This document shows, piece after piece, positions 1,917 through 64,000 of a DNA stretch of 64,000 bases. This DNA comes from Sphingomonas jatrophae (GTDB taxonomy: Bacteria > Pseudomonadota > Alphaproteobacteria > Sphingomonadales > Sphingomonadaceae). Under the pieces are notes generated by a model. The model saw only the letters and a list, made by a program, of their open reading frames with translations. It was not told the DNA's origin and did no database searches. Made by a program: the position numbers and the translations under genes. Position 1 is the stretch's first letter. Each line of letters opens with the position of its first letter. The stretch spans positions 620,001 through 684,000 of the forward strand of contig NZ_FOZG01000002.1 in the NCBI RefSeq assembly GCF_900113315.1, written 5' to 3'.

Positions 1917-2846
1917 TCAGCCATGGGCGGCCGCCACCCACCGCTCCCCCGCCCTCATCGTCGCGATCGCCTCTGCCGCCAGCCCGGCGACGAACGGATC
2001 CGCATCGCGCGCCGCCCGCGCAAAAGCGTCCGCCCGCTCGGCACGTGACGGCGCCACCCGCGCCGCTGCGGCGAGGGCCGCGAAGCGCGCCCAGCCATTG
2101 GGATGGCCGGCCCCCACCTCCGCCACCAGCGCCCGCCCCTCCTCGCCGCCCAGCGCCGCGGCGAGCGGCAGCAGCGCCGTGAGCGAGGTGGTCGTCAGCA
2201 CCTCCGTGACGCGGTCCGCCTCGGGATCGAAGCGGTGCTGCACCGCCGGCGCGCGGCCGCGCGTCTCCGCCATCAGGTTGATCGTGATCGACAGCCGCTC
2301 GGCCGGCAGCTGGCGATGCACATCGCGGTGCGCGCGGTAGAGCATCAGCTCGCCCGGCCCCAGCATGCGCCGCCCTGCCGGCACCAGCCCTGCCGCCGCA
2401 CCCGGCGCGGCCGAACCGAGCGCCGGATCGCGCTCCCAATAGTCGCTGGCATAGCCCGGCCCGTGATAGCCGAGCGTCACGAAGGCGAAATCGTGATCGT
2501 GCGCGACGCCGTAGAAGAAGGGCGCCAGCCCGCCCGCGCGCACCACCGGATCGTCTGGCGCCGGCCATAGGCAGGCACGCAGGAACCAGCCGTCCCCGCG
2601 ATGAAGCATCATCACCTGCGCGCTGTAGCGGCTGGCGCGCGCCTGAGGGGCGCAGCGCGCCACCAGCGCGGCAATCGCGAGATCGCCGAGGAAGCGCCGG
2701 TCCCGCCCCAGTGCAGCGAGGATCGGCGCCTGCGCCGCCAACGCCGCCTCGTCCCGCGGATCGAACCGTGCATCGGCCAGGCGCGCGGCCGCATCGTCGA
2801 GGCAGAGCCGCTCCGTGCCGCCGCCTGCTGCCAGCGCTACCGGCAT
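1917..2846 (-). CDS. Cupin-like metal-binding protein with C-terminal HEAT-like helices
   Basis: Third gene of a three-gene minus-strand operon. The 309-residue protein has a helical N-terminus, a central beta-rich segment with an HDHDF motif inside GVAHDHDFAFVTLGY, and later AHRDVH, a layout like the two metal-binding motifs of a cupin/double-stranded beta-helix. The last 90 residues look like HEAT-type helical repeats. Relatives in sphingomonads are, to my recollection, often auto-labelled transposase, but nothing here resembles a DDE or serine recombinase and no terminal repeats are seen. Its start overlaps the stop of the preceding HEAT gene by 10 bases, implying translational coupling. 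I infer an Fe- or metal-dependent enzyme acting on the small peptide encoded first in the operon; substrate and reaction are unknown. Confidence 0.6.
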   Translation of the reverse strand: MPVALAAGGGTERLCLDDAAARLADARFDPRDEAALAAQAPILAALGRDRRFLGDLAIAALVARCAPQARASRYSAQVMMLHRGDGWFLRACLWPAPDDPVVRAGGLAPFFYGVAHDHDFAFVTLGYHGPGYASDYWERDPALGSAAPGAAAGLVPAGRRMLGPGELMLYRAHRDVHRQLPAERLSITINLMAETRGRAPAVQHRFDPEADRVTEVLTTTSLTALLPLAAALGGEEGRALVAEVGAGHPNGWARFAALAAAARVAPSRAERADAFARAARDADPFVAGLAAEAIATMRAGERWVAAAHG

Positions 2847-3738: not shown

Positions 3739-3897
3739 TCAGCCCTCGGTGACGACGACGACGGTTATGACGCTGTTGAAGCAGACGCTGCCGCCCACTT
3801 CCGCCTGGTGCAGCGTGCCGGCAAGGCCTACGCGCGTGTCGAGATCGGGCAGGTCGTCGAGGCGCAGTGTCGGCAGACGGTCGGTCGGCAGGTCCAT
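3739..3897 (-). CDS. 52-residue peptide, candidate modified-peptide precursor
   Basis: This short gene opens the operon. ATG at 3897 is preceded by GAGGAG eight bases upstream, and the stop lies five bases before the HEAT gene. The peptide has an acidic, leucine-rich N-terminal part (MDLPTDRLPTLRLDDLPDLD), then a Gly-Gly at residues 35-36, then a hydrophobic 16-residue tail SVCFNSVITVVVVTEG with a single Cys39 and Asn41. The layout of leader, Gly-Gly and short tail, translated just ahead of two unusual proteins, resembles a ribosomally made, post-translationally modified peptide precursor. No protease or export gene is adjacent. It could instead be a small structural partner of the two proteins. 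Coding status rests on RBS, spacing and operon position. Confidence 0.6.
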   Translation of the reverse strand: MDLPTDRLPTLRLDDLPDLDTRVGLAGTLHQAEVGGSVCFNSVITVVVVTEG

Positions 3898-3995
3898 GGC
3901 AGGCTCCTCATCGTGGAGCCGCCATTGTGGCGCGATCTCATCCTCTTTGGGGCGCGGTCCGGTCCAGTTTGGCGCCTTCTCCGCGCATCGGCGGC

Positions 3996-4604
3996 TCAGT
4001 CGGGCGCGGCGACCATCACCACCAACGGCCCTTTACGCCCTTCGGCGATGCGCACCTGCAACGGCTGTTCGGGCGTGAGATCGACCAGCCCGCCCCGCCG
4101 CACCGTCTCCATGTGGACGAAGATGTCGTCGTCCGACCCCGCCCGGTTGACGAAGCCATAGCCGCGCAGCCGGTTGAACCACTTGACGATCACCGGCTCC
4201 CACGCGCCCGCCGCATCGACCAGCGCAACGGGATCGGTGCGGTCGGCGGCGCGACGGAGCGCCGGCTCGGGATCGGCGACGGTGGCGCAGCTCAGGTCGA
4301 TCGCGACAACACGGCGGGCTTGACGCCCCCGGTCCCGCGCCACGGCGAGGCATTCCACCCGCGCCCCCTCCGGCAGCGAGCGGCGGCCATGATCGCGCAG
4401 CGCACTGAAGTGGACGAGCACGTCTCCCCCGCCATCCTCCGCGACGAGGAAGCCGAAGCCGCGGACCACGTCGAACCACTTCACCGTGCCCGTAACGGCC
4501 TCGCCCTCGTCCTCGACCGGGAAAGCGATCACGGAGCCGGGCACGGCGATGCCTGCCGCGCCGACGCGCGTCTCCCCCTCGTCCTGTTGCTGGTCGAGTC
4601 GCAT
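3996..4604 (-). CDS. Double cold-shock domain protein
   Basis: A 202-residue protein with two cold-shock domains: the first near residues 36-100 (GTVKWFDVVRGFGF, then DVLVHFSAL), the second near residues 136-198 (VIVKWFNRLRGYGF, then DIFVHMETV). RNP1 and RNP2 are recognisable in both, linked by about 35 residues. Tandem-CSD proteins of this size are common in alphaproteobacteria and act as nucleic-acid chaperones, often in stationary phase. The gene is separate from the peptide operon downstream (98-base gap). The second domain is slightly divergent after RNP2. Confidence 0.85.
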   Translation of the reverse strand: MRLDQQQDEGETRVGAAGIAVPGSVIAFPVEDEGEAVTGTVKWFDVVRGFGFLVAEDGGGDVLVHFSALRDHGRRSLPEGARVECLAVARDRGRQARRVVAIDLSCATVADPEPALRRAADRTDPVALVDAAGAWEPVIVKWFNRLRGYGFVNRAGSDDDIFVHMETVRRGGLVDLTPEQPLQVRIAEGRKGPLVVMVAAPD

Positions 4605-62378: not shown

Positions 62379-63536
62379 ATGATTTCAGACGTCGCGTCGT
62401 CGCGTGAGGGCATCACGTCCCGCACCGCCATCCTGTCCATCCTCGGATTCTGGGCATTCCACTTCGTGATCGTCACGCTGCGCGCCGCGGTGCTCGGCTT
62501 CGACGATCAGCTGGAGATGCTGGTCCGTCGCGCGGTCGTCACCCTGGTCAGCATCGGCATCACCATGGTCGTCTGGCTGCTGCTGCGGCGGGTGCATGGC
62601 GCGCCGCTCAGCCGGCGGGTGGCGGCGGCCGCCTTGCTCGCCGTGCCCGCGTCGATCGTCTATTCCGCGGTCAACTACTACGTCTTCTACGATTTCGGCC
62701 TGCCCAAGAGCGTGGTCATCGCCAACAAGGCGGACGAGAAGACGCTGACCGTGCAGGTCGACATGACGCACGCCGACGAAAAGTCGCCGGTGATGGCGAT
62801 CGCGGACAATGCCGCCAACGGCTATTTCTTCTTCGCCGCCTGGGCCGCCTTGTTCCTCGCGCTGACCTATGCCGCCGAGACGGGCCATGCCGAGCGCCGC
62901 GTCGCGCGGTTCCGCGCCGCCGCGCAATCGGCCGAGCTGCGCGCGCTCCGCTATCAGGTGAACCCGCACTTCCTGTTCAACACGCTGAATTCGCTCTCCT
63001 CGCTGATCATGACCGACCGGCGCGATGCGGCGGAGGCGATGGTGATGAACCTATCGACCTTCTTTCGCACCAGCCTGACGGGCGATCCGACCGAGGACAT
63101 GCGGCTGTCGGACGAACTGCGGCTCCAGCGGCTCTATCTCGATATCGAGACGGTGCGCTTCCCCGAGCGCATGCTGGTCGACATCGCCGTGCCCGACGCG
63201 CTGATGGATGCGTGCGTGCCGGGCCTGATCCTGCAGCCATTAATCGAGAATGCGATCAAATATGGCGTGTCGCCGGCCCGCCGCGTGGTGCGGATCAGCG
63301 TGCGCGCGCGGGAGAGCGAAGGGCGGCTGGTGCTTGCGGTGGAGGACGACGGCGACGATAAGCCGACAGGTGCAACCATCGGCGAGCCTGGCGTGACGAA
63401 CGGAATCGGCCTGAGGAACGTGCGCGAGCGCTTGGCGGCGCGGTTCGGCGACGCGGCGGACGCTGCCTGGGGCCGGCGCCCCGGCGGCGGCTGGGCGGTG
63501 GTGCTGACCATGCCGCTGGTCCGCAATGGCTGCTGA
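62379..63536 (+). CDS. LytS/YehU-type sensor histidine kinase
   Basis: A 385-residue kinase with four or five membrane helices (LSILGFWAFHFVIVTLRAA, VTLVSIGITMVVWLLLR, AALLAVPASIVYSAVNYYVF, YFFFAAWAALFLALTYAAE) and the His_kinase domain: the acceptor histidine in VNPHFLFNTLNSL, then ILQPLIENAIKYG and a GIGLRNVRERL ATPase tail. It pairs with the LytTR regulator 23 bases downstream. ATG 62379 chosen, ATG 62313 is possible. Confidence 0.85.
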   Translation: MISDVASSREGITSRTAILSILGFWAFHFVIVTLRAAVLGFDDQLEMLVRRAVVTLVSIGITMVVWLLLRRVHGAPLSRRVAAAALLAVPASIVYSAVNYYVFYDFGLPKSVVIANKADEKTLTVQVDMTHADEKSPVMAIADNAANGYFFFAAWAALFLALTYAAETGHAERRVARFRAAAQSAELRALRYQVNPHFLFNTLNSLSSLIMTDRRDAAEAMVMNLSTFFRTSLTGDPTEDMRLSDELRLQRLYLDIETVRFPERMLVDIAVPDALMDACVPGLILQPLIENAIKYGVSPARRVVRISVRARESEGRLVLAVEDDGDDKPTGATIGEPGVTNGIGLRNVRERLAARFGDAADAAWGRRPGGGWAVVLTMPLVRNGC

Positions 63537-63559
63537 ACAGTTCATCAGGCTGACCTGTC

Positions 63560-64000
63560 GTGGCTGCTGACGGCGCGGGCGCACCTCCCGTTCTCCGCAC
63601 GCTCGTCGTCGATGACGAGCCGCTGGCGATCGAGCGTCTGCAGATCCTCTGCGCGCGCGAGCCGATGGTCGATCTCGTCGGCACCGCCGCCGATGGCGAG
63701 GCGGCGCTGCGGCTGGTCGAGGCGCTGGAGCCGGACCTGCTGCTGCTCGACATTTCGATGCCCGGCCTCGACGGCATGGGCGTGGCGCGCGCGCTGGAGA
63801 AGCGCACGCGCCGGCCCGCGGTCATCTTCTGCACCGCCTATGATCAGTTCGCGGTGGCGGCGTTCGACGTGGCGGCGGTGGATTACCTCCTCAAGCCCGT
63901 CGCGCCCGATCGGCTGTCCCGCGCGGTGGCGCGCGCGGCGGAGAAACTGTCGGGAGCGCCCGCGCCGGCCGCGCCCGAAACACAGGCGCCGGTGCCCGAG
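63560..64000 (+). CDS. LytTR-type response regulator, 3'-truncated
   Basis: The first 147 codons of a response regulator lie in the window: receiver domain with VVDDEPLAIERL, the phospho-acceptor Asp in LLLLDISMPGLDG, and the signalling Lys in YLLKPV. The pattern FDVAAVDYLLKPVAPDRL is usual for LytTR regulators; the DNA-binding domain would follow after the window end. It starts at GTG 63560 without a strong ribosome-binding site. Confidence 0.8.
   Translation, partial: MAADGAGAPPVLRTLVVDDEPLAIERLQILCAREPMVDLVGTAADGEAALRLVEALEPDLLLLDISMPGLDGMGVARALEKRTRRPAVIFCTAYDQFAVAAFDVAAVDYLLKPVAPDRLSRAVARAAEKLSGAPAPAAPETQAPVPE

Follow-up and report, generated by a model that had tools for sequence, protein, structure and literature searches.

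A 52-residue precursor-like peptide encoded ahead of a HEAT-repeat protein and a putative iron cupin in Sphingomonas jatrophae and its relatives

The stretch of 64,000 nucleotides from Sphingomonas jatrophae analysed here (further referred to as the window) contains a reading frame of 52 codons, which raises the question of whether so short a frame is a gene and, if so, what its product does. The encoded peptide, MDLPTDRLPTLRLDDLPDLDTRVGLAGTLHQAEVGGSVCFNSVITVVVVTEG, consists of an acidic leader (approximately residues 1–31), the EVGGSVC segment and a tail rich in Val and Ile. Gly35-Gly36, Cys39, Asn41 and the Val-rich end, listed in an earlier note made from the sequence of the window, are all present. 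Two genes downstream of the peptide gene, overlooked in that note, provide the strongest evidence. The features of the locus are given in Table 1.

Table 1. Features of the peptide locus in the window
Feature	Position	Strand	Basis
Precursor-like peptide, 52 aa	3739..3897	-	ORF, relatives and purifying selection
Shine-Dalgarno-like GAGGAG, 6 nt 5' of the peptide ATG	3904..3909	-	Read from the sequence
HEAT-repeat protein, 298 aa	2837..3733	-	PF13646 match and predicted model
Cupin, 309 aa, thiol-dioxygenase-like predicted fold	1917..2846	-	Model of a relative and His triad

The peptide gene comes first and is followed by the genes of the HEAT-repeat protein and the cupin. The stop codon of the peptide gene is separated from the ATG of the HEAT gene by 5 nt, and the end of the HEAT gene overlaps the start of the cupin gene by 10 nt; this spacing and overlap suggest that the three genes form one operon. 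The genes overlap likewise in most relatives. CPA/CRA at the C-terminus of the HEAT protein resembled a conserved Cys motif, a reading that was rejected, as in the window these residues result from the overlap with the cupin start codon. A 202-aa protein with two cold-shock domains (PF00313, two stretches) is encoded directly upstream of the operon at 3996–4604 on the minus strand.

Relatives of the locus were collected by scanning contigs with the alignment of the 309-aa protein. The scan yielded 411 relatives, and the best 80 were kept for locus analysis. Most of these come from sphingomonads; among those that do not are Alteromonas halophila (L074) and a contig titled Bacillus sp. 2B10 (L092), whose enzyme is nested among Sphingomonas rows in the tree, the contig likely being mislabelled or contaminated. 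A peptide of the same kind was found upstream of the cupin by profile search (E below 1) in 77 of the best 80 loci, and in two more (L050 and L064) it was recognised by eye. One locus (L051) was left out of this count, given that its contig ends first. Hence, all 79 testable loci have the upstream peptide. The profile matches of L074, L044 and L045 were weak (E 0.56, 0.028 and 0.0057, respectively) and were accepted on the motif and position. Further, in all 80 loci an ORF of 239–355 aa, found by position, ends from −30 to +16 nt relative to the cupin start.

The two profiles were then applied to 296 sampled genomes of the order (taken as Sphingomonadales), where the enzyme profile matched 99 genomes and the peptide profile, built from 22 rows, matched 91. 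Both matched in 90 genomes, the peptide only in one, the enzyme only in nine and neither in 196, a count that is partly circular, as certain rows of both profiles had come from this same draw; of the 90 genomes, at least 68 did not contribute to the peptide profile. In other words, the peptide was matched in 90 of the 99 enzyme-positive genomes and in one of the 197 others. The latter match (G235) is weak and lies inside a 649-aa frame, and two of the 99 enzyme matches are weak as well: G001 (E 8.9e-4), one of the enzyme-only genomes, and G119, a fragment. The linkage of the genes is established: peptide and enzyme are within 2.5 kb of each other in 88 of the 90 genomes and on different contigs in the other two. 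The window peptide alone is a weak query, matching three of the 296 genomes at E 0.001. Outside the order the three-gene system is rare. The window's own family aside, matches were found in one of 385 genomes drawn from the class (G612) and in two of 398 drawn from the phylum (G783 and G939), both draws including some genomes of that family.

The peptide alignment contained 80 sequences (79 loci and the window). Its least variable columns, in the window numbering, are G27 (78 of 80), L19 (77 of 80) and T21 (64 of 80), and the column of L16 has 48 Leu and 27 Ile among 79 sequences. The acidic leader with the pattern LPxLxT...G is thus conserved, and the tail is aliphatic, rich in Val and Ile. 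The earlier note had proposed an alignment of homologues as the way to see which part of the peptide matters; both the leader and the tail halves proved to be conserved. Tails fall into several types: EVGGxxC with a short run of V, I, A and G; tails like DDxFEYIIGVAILIYE; and tails like DDTIVVIMVYVYD. They differ between the types yet are conserved within them, with L19 and G27 of the leader nearly fixed throughout. The EVGGxxC subclass, which holds the window, comprises 22 rows picked by eye on EVGG and Cys before counting; within this selection Cys is present in 22 rows, EVGG in 19 and EV[AG][GS] in 21. Thus, of the two residues proposed earlier as possible modification sites, Cys39 is retained in every row of a subclass that was itself chosen on the motif, and Asn41 has no counterpart in the aligned relatives. 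The EVGGxxC tail type tracks the enzyme tree, with 2 label changes compared to 20.1 in shuffles. One locus placed in the Cys group of this tree (L120) has a precursor that is a guess, and the branch of the window is long (1.31), its neighbour being L056 (support 96/77). In two distant systems the peptides 5' of the HEAT gene, chosen by eye and by their position, end in a hydrophobic stretch that contains no Cys: MERKSVVLEDLLDDVAPTTNTTTELGIVITIAVVIL (G939) and MDLMIEAVNALGNFDVAMFDPQVLDPVFVIPIIIILTKTL (G783). Hence it looks as if the general feature were the aliphatic tail and not the Cys. The peptide of A. halophila, which belongs to another class, has a Cys.

Peptide genes are under purifying selection. 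In close pairs pS equals 0.485 and pN 0.146, which gives pN/pS of approximately 0.30; the pairs had peptide identity above 60%, each locus was used a few times at most, and the pairs are not independent. Change across the frame is therefore not random; random change was the outcome that the earlier note had named as speaking against its reading. In many pairs the peptide shows higher conservation than the HEAT protein, an outcome favoured by the choice of pairs on peptide identity. Since peptides of the same kind precede the same enzyme in all testable loci, and pS exceeds pN, the 52-aa peptide is a real gene and not a chance ORF.

The 309-aa protein of the window has no match in Pfam or NCBIfam up to E 10. 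Among eight cupin rows scanned, NCBIfam gave no match and Pfam weak ones only: the best, to an EF-hand model, had E 0.0096, and HEAT_2 was matched in two rows with E of 0.017 at best. A search of PDB sequences with the cupin profile returned five weak matches (best E 0.089) with no thiol dioxygenase among them. The fold was read from the AlphaFold2 model of the relative from L034 (alignment A1; pLDDT 86, pTM 0.78), in which a thiol-dioxygenase-like fold spans residues 11–218. This model matches 4tlf with Foldseek E 1e-8 and VIA Z 13.8 (rmsd 3.3, 162 residues aligned), and the 50 VIA matches listed are cysteine, mercaptan, plant cysteine, cysteamine and ergothioneine dioxygenases, some of them putative. 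The family is thus predicted to have the cupin fold of the cysteine dioxygenase (CDO) type. The HxH...H triad is conserved: of the 102 rows spanning its three columns, 101, with the window among them, retain it (the alignment has 104 rows, near-duplicates of the same species among them). The window protein is accordingly a putative iron-type cupin, in which H116, H118 and H177 would be the ligands. In the remaining locus (L027, genome G146) the third metal His is replaced by R and the peptide is devoid of the usual hydrophobic tail, an apparent joint decay of the enzyme and the peptide. Cysteine dioxygenases carry S-x-H-x-Y residues, and at this place, judged by the sequence pattern and not by superposed coordinates, the family has S-x-S-x-N.

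The HEAT-repeat protein matches PF13646 (31.8 bits, above the cutoff of 27.7; E 1.8e-7). Its AlphaFold2 model (alignment A2; pLDDT 87.4, pTM 0.71) predicts a helical N-terminal part, a CDO-type cupin barrel and a C-terminal HEAT part; HEAT-like C-termini appear in the predicted models of both proteins. The best Foldseek match is mercaptosuccinate dioxygenase (8vni, E 3.5e-5), with other cupins close behind, and cysteine dioxygenases rank first by VIA (4qm9, Z 10.5, rmsd 3.3, 144 residues aligned). No invariant His was found in 14 aligned rows of this protein. Comparison with the cupin family by hhalign gave the probability of 78% and the pair E of 1.8e-5, in the C-terminal half. Given the similar predicted fold and the absence of the metal histidines, the HEAT protein looks like a pseudoenzyme paralogue of the iron cupin and its partner, with which it may form a complex.

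No exporter or protease common to the loci was seen among ORF clusters from the 80 loci and the window. The clustering was crude: antisense ORFs were kept and the operon genes were partly broken (the HEAT cluster covers 56 loci and the cupin cluster 51). Besides the operon, it gave divergent genes in 26–28 loci (hotdog thioesterases as read by eye) and local synteny. A match to an ABC exporter at E 1e-12 is absent from 70 of the 80 loci, some of which have short flanks. An ABC system adjoins the operon in the same direction in five loci (L044, L045, L050, L064 and L074). The first four contain, at 11.5–20 kb, a second set of peptide, HEAT and cupin genes, whose peptide has another tail. Behind this set come genes of an ABC exporter, HlyD, an ABC ATPase and MacB/FtsX permeases; these families were checked in L044, whose exporter has no C39 domain. 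In A. halophila the cupin gene is followed by those of an ABC ATPase and an ABC-2 permease, and divergent genes of HlyD, an ABC ATPase, MacB, a histidine kinase and LytTR flank the other side of the operon (L074:2376-12925), an arrangement resembling that found near secreted peptide signals. At 62925–63988 on the plus strand, 59 kb from its operon, the window has matches to a histidine kinase and a LytTR regulator similar to these. In four loci (L038, L047, L052 and L059) an ABC-2-like permease is encoded on the opposite strand, 2.5–5.4 kb away, and L048 has an ABC match. In the window, the nearest ABC match is weak and partial (19.9–20.2 kb), followed by an ABC-2-like permease (28.0–28.6 kb).

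Several other neighbours were noticed by eye. A winged-helix-like protein (L034, L056) and a TIR-like protein (L034, L036) are encoded about 1–3 kb after the cupin. A sigma-factor-like cluster lies about 1.8–2.8 kb 5' of the cupin in seven loci with EVGGxxC-type operons, and a cluster resembling a small membrane protein is 5' of such operons in six, partly the same, loci (L038, L039, L045, L048, L050, L052 and L060); both may be regulatory. A defence system was considered and rejected: the sole PADLOC match, to PglZ, was weak (E 0.0077) and came from a single relative, with no match for the window proteins.

A short precursor-like gene beside genes of candidate modifying enzymes, a feature of RiPP systems, is present in all 79 testable loci. 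We consider it somewhat probable that the peptide serves as the substrate of such a RiPP-like system, to be oxidised by the iron cupin together with the HEAT partner. The acidic leader would be bound by the HEAT-repeat/pseudo-cupin protein together with its cupin paralogue, and the three-His iron cupin would act within the hydrophobic tail or close to it, such as on the residues immediately ahead; for the window subclass, the conserved Cys of EVGGxxC is a candidate site. Release of the product may depend on a protease from outside the operon, and where an exporter adjoins the operon the product is probably secreted. This reading draws on the co-occurrence of the two profiles in 90 genomes and their close linkage in 88, on purifying selection on the peptide, and on the combination of nearly fixed leader columns with an EVGGxxC tail type that follows the enzyme tree. 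It is further favoured by the predicted thiol-dioxygenase-like cupin folds of both downstream proteins, which are profile-related, by the near-universal His triad, whose sole loss coincides with the loss of the usual tail, and by the four of 80 loci where a tandem set with a different tail is followed by exporter genes. Against it stand the lack of Cys in most of the peptides, S-x-S-x-N in place of the CDO residues, the fact that no protease common to the loci was seen among the crude ORF clusters, the 70 loci with no ABC-exporter match at E 1e-12, the nine genomes with the enzyme and no peptide match, and the conservation of the peptide along its length, as could be expected of a structural subunit.

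The latter possibility is the main rival. The peptide would be a permanent small subunit or activator whose tail adds a strand to a two-cupin complex acting on another substrate. Its conservation over the whole length, often above that of the HEAT protein (with the bias from the choice of pairs), the tight gene linkage and the fact that no common exporter or protease was seen all agree with this. However, tails vary greatly between the types and the active-site residues of the enzyme do not, and four tandem sets with different tails lie beside exporters; we regard a subunit as unlikely. A narrower version of the RiPP-like reading, with which its probability overlaps, is a thiol-specific one: Cys39 of the EVGGxxC subclass would be turned into a sulfinate by the cupin, as by ADO and PCO, the reaction having been lost or changed in the others. 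Thiol dioxygenases are the best fold matches, and Cys is found both in the window subclass and in an organism of another class, A. halophila. Yet 53 of the 80 peptides are Cys-less while their enzymes keep the same active-site residues, and the distant systems of G939 and G783 have aliphatic ends without Cys. Since any Cys is found in only 27 of the 80 peptides, a thiol reaction cannot be general; for the window subclass it could hold, and we rate this version as rather improbable.

Two further explanations take the peptide as a leader of another kind. The earlier note pointed to the Gly-Gly pair as a common leader-cleavage motif, and in a double-glycine scheme cleavage at GG36 and export by a C39 transporter would give SVCFNSVITVVVVTEG. 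The alignment bears out a precursor-like make-up, in which the acidic leader is conserved and the tail hydrophobic; Gly-Gly as its cleavage site is not supported. EVGG does precede the tail in 19 of the 22 subclass rows, but outside the subclass GG occurs anywhere in just 10 of 58 rows, in nine of them at or near the C-terminus. Nor does the peptide have the residues E(-8)/L(-7)/aliphatic(-4) that characterise double-glycine leaders. The earlier note was right that no export peptidase adjoins the peptide gene: Peptidase_C39 (PF03412) was matched nowhere in the genome, the stated completeness of which is 99.99%, whereas the control was positive in 8 of 14 genomes. Cleavage by a C39 peptidase was rejected on this result, and the scheme as a whole is very improbable. 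The remaining explanation is a regulatory one. Attenuator leader peptides of the ivbL kind are rich in Val and Ile, and the peptide has a V/I-rich end just 5' of an operon. Nevertheless, in the window the gap of 5 nt before the HEAT gene is too short for a terminator, nothing in Pfam or NCBIfam links the downstream proteins to branched-chain amino acids, and the leader half is conserved as protein, with pN/pS making an attenuator unlikely; we give this explanation hardly any credence.

The predicted fold of the cupin and the HxH...H sequence pattern are shared with thiol dioxygenases such as cysteine dioxygenase, 4tlf of Pseudomonas aeruginosa and ADO/PCO, from which the present family differs by the additional C-terminal HEAT part, S-x-S-x-N, the pseudoenzyme partner and mostly Cys-less peptides. 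ADO oxidises the N-terminal Cys of proteins, as stated in an excerpt of PMC8503633. Cupin-like hydroxylases are already known in RiPP clusters, as JmjC-related enzymes beside others: according to PMC12257519, PbsQ, from the cluster of a biphenomycin-like RiPP, acts on the ribosomal precursor of its own cluster, next to an MNIO, a B12-radical SAM enzyme and an arginase. The likeness to PbsQ is in the cupin-fold enzyme and the precursor of its own cluster, whose modification would be the counterpart here; unlike in that cluster, a cupin of the three-His type and the pseudoenzyme are the only enzymes common to the loci. MNIO (DUF692) RiPP clusters, as described in PMC12257519, likewise combine an iron enzyme, a partner protein and a short precursor, but the predicted fold differs, no MNIO was seen in the operon, and the partner here is the paralogue of the enzyme. 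A Nif11/cupin cluster is mentioned in an excerpt of PMC10783134. NblB and phycocyanobilin lyase share C-terminal HEAT repeats, the match being confined to the repeats (the NblB score is 18.9 bits, below the cutoff of 300). No named family covers the three-gene set, and no Pfam or NCBIfam model exceeds its cutoff for the cupin rows scanned. No description of a peptide-HEAT-cupin system was found in the open-licence PMC literature, where the only paper that turned up for HEAT repeats with RiPP leader peptides was on a lanthipeptide synthetase.

A bolder claim, which we put forward tentatively as possible but doubtful, is that these genes represent a new RiPP class, where two paralogous HEAT proteins of the thiol-dioxygenase fold, an iron enzyme and a leader-carrying pseudoenzyme, oxidise Val/Ile-rich tails to yield an exported signal or antibiotic in sphingomonads. 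As a part of this joint claim, tail oxidation would extend beyond Cys, a chemistry unseen for the thiol-dioxygenase fold.

The substrates of known thiol dioxygenases are small thiols or the N-terminal Cys of proteins. If the RiPP-like reading is true, the family, present in roughly one third of the genomes sampled from the order, would consist of peptide-modifying enzymes that use the thiol-dioxygenase fold and come with a pseudoenzyme partner of their own, and the Cys-less substrates would mean new chemistry for this fold. The three-gene operon is small enough for direct testing.
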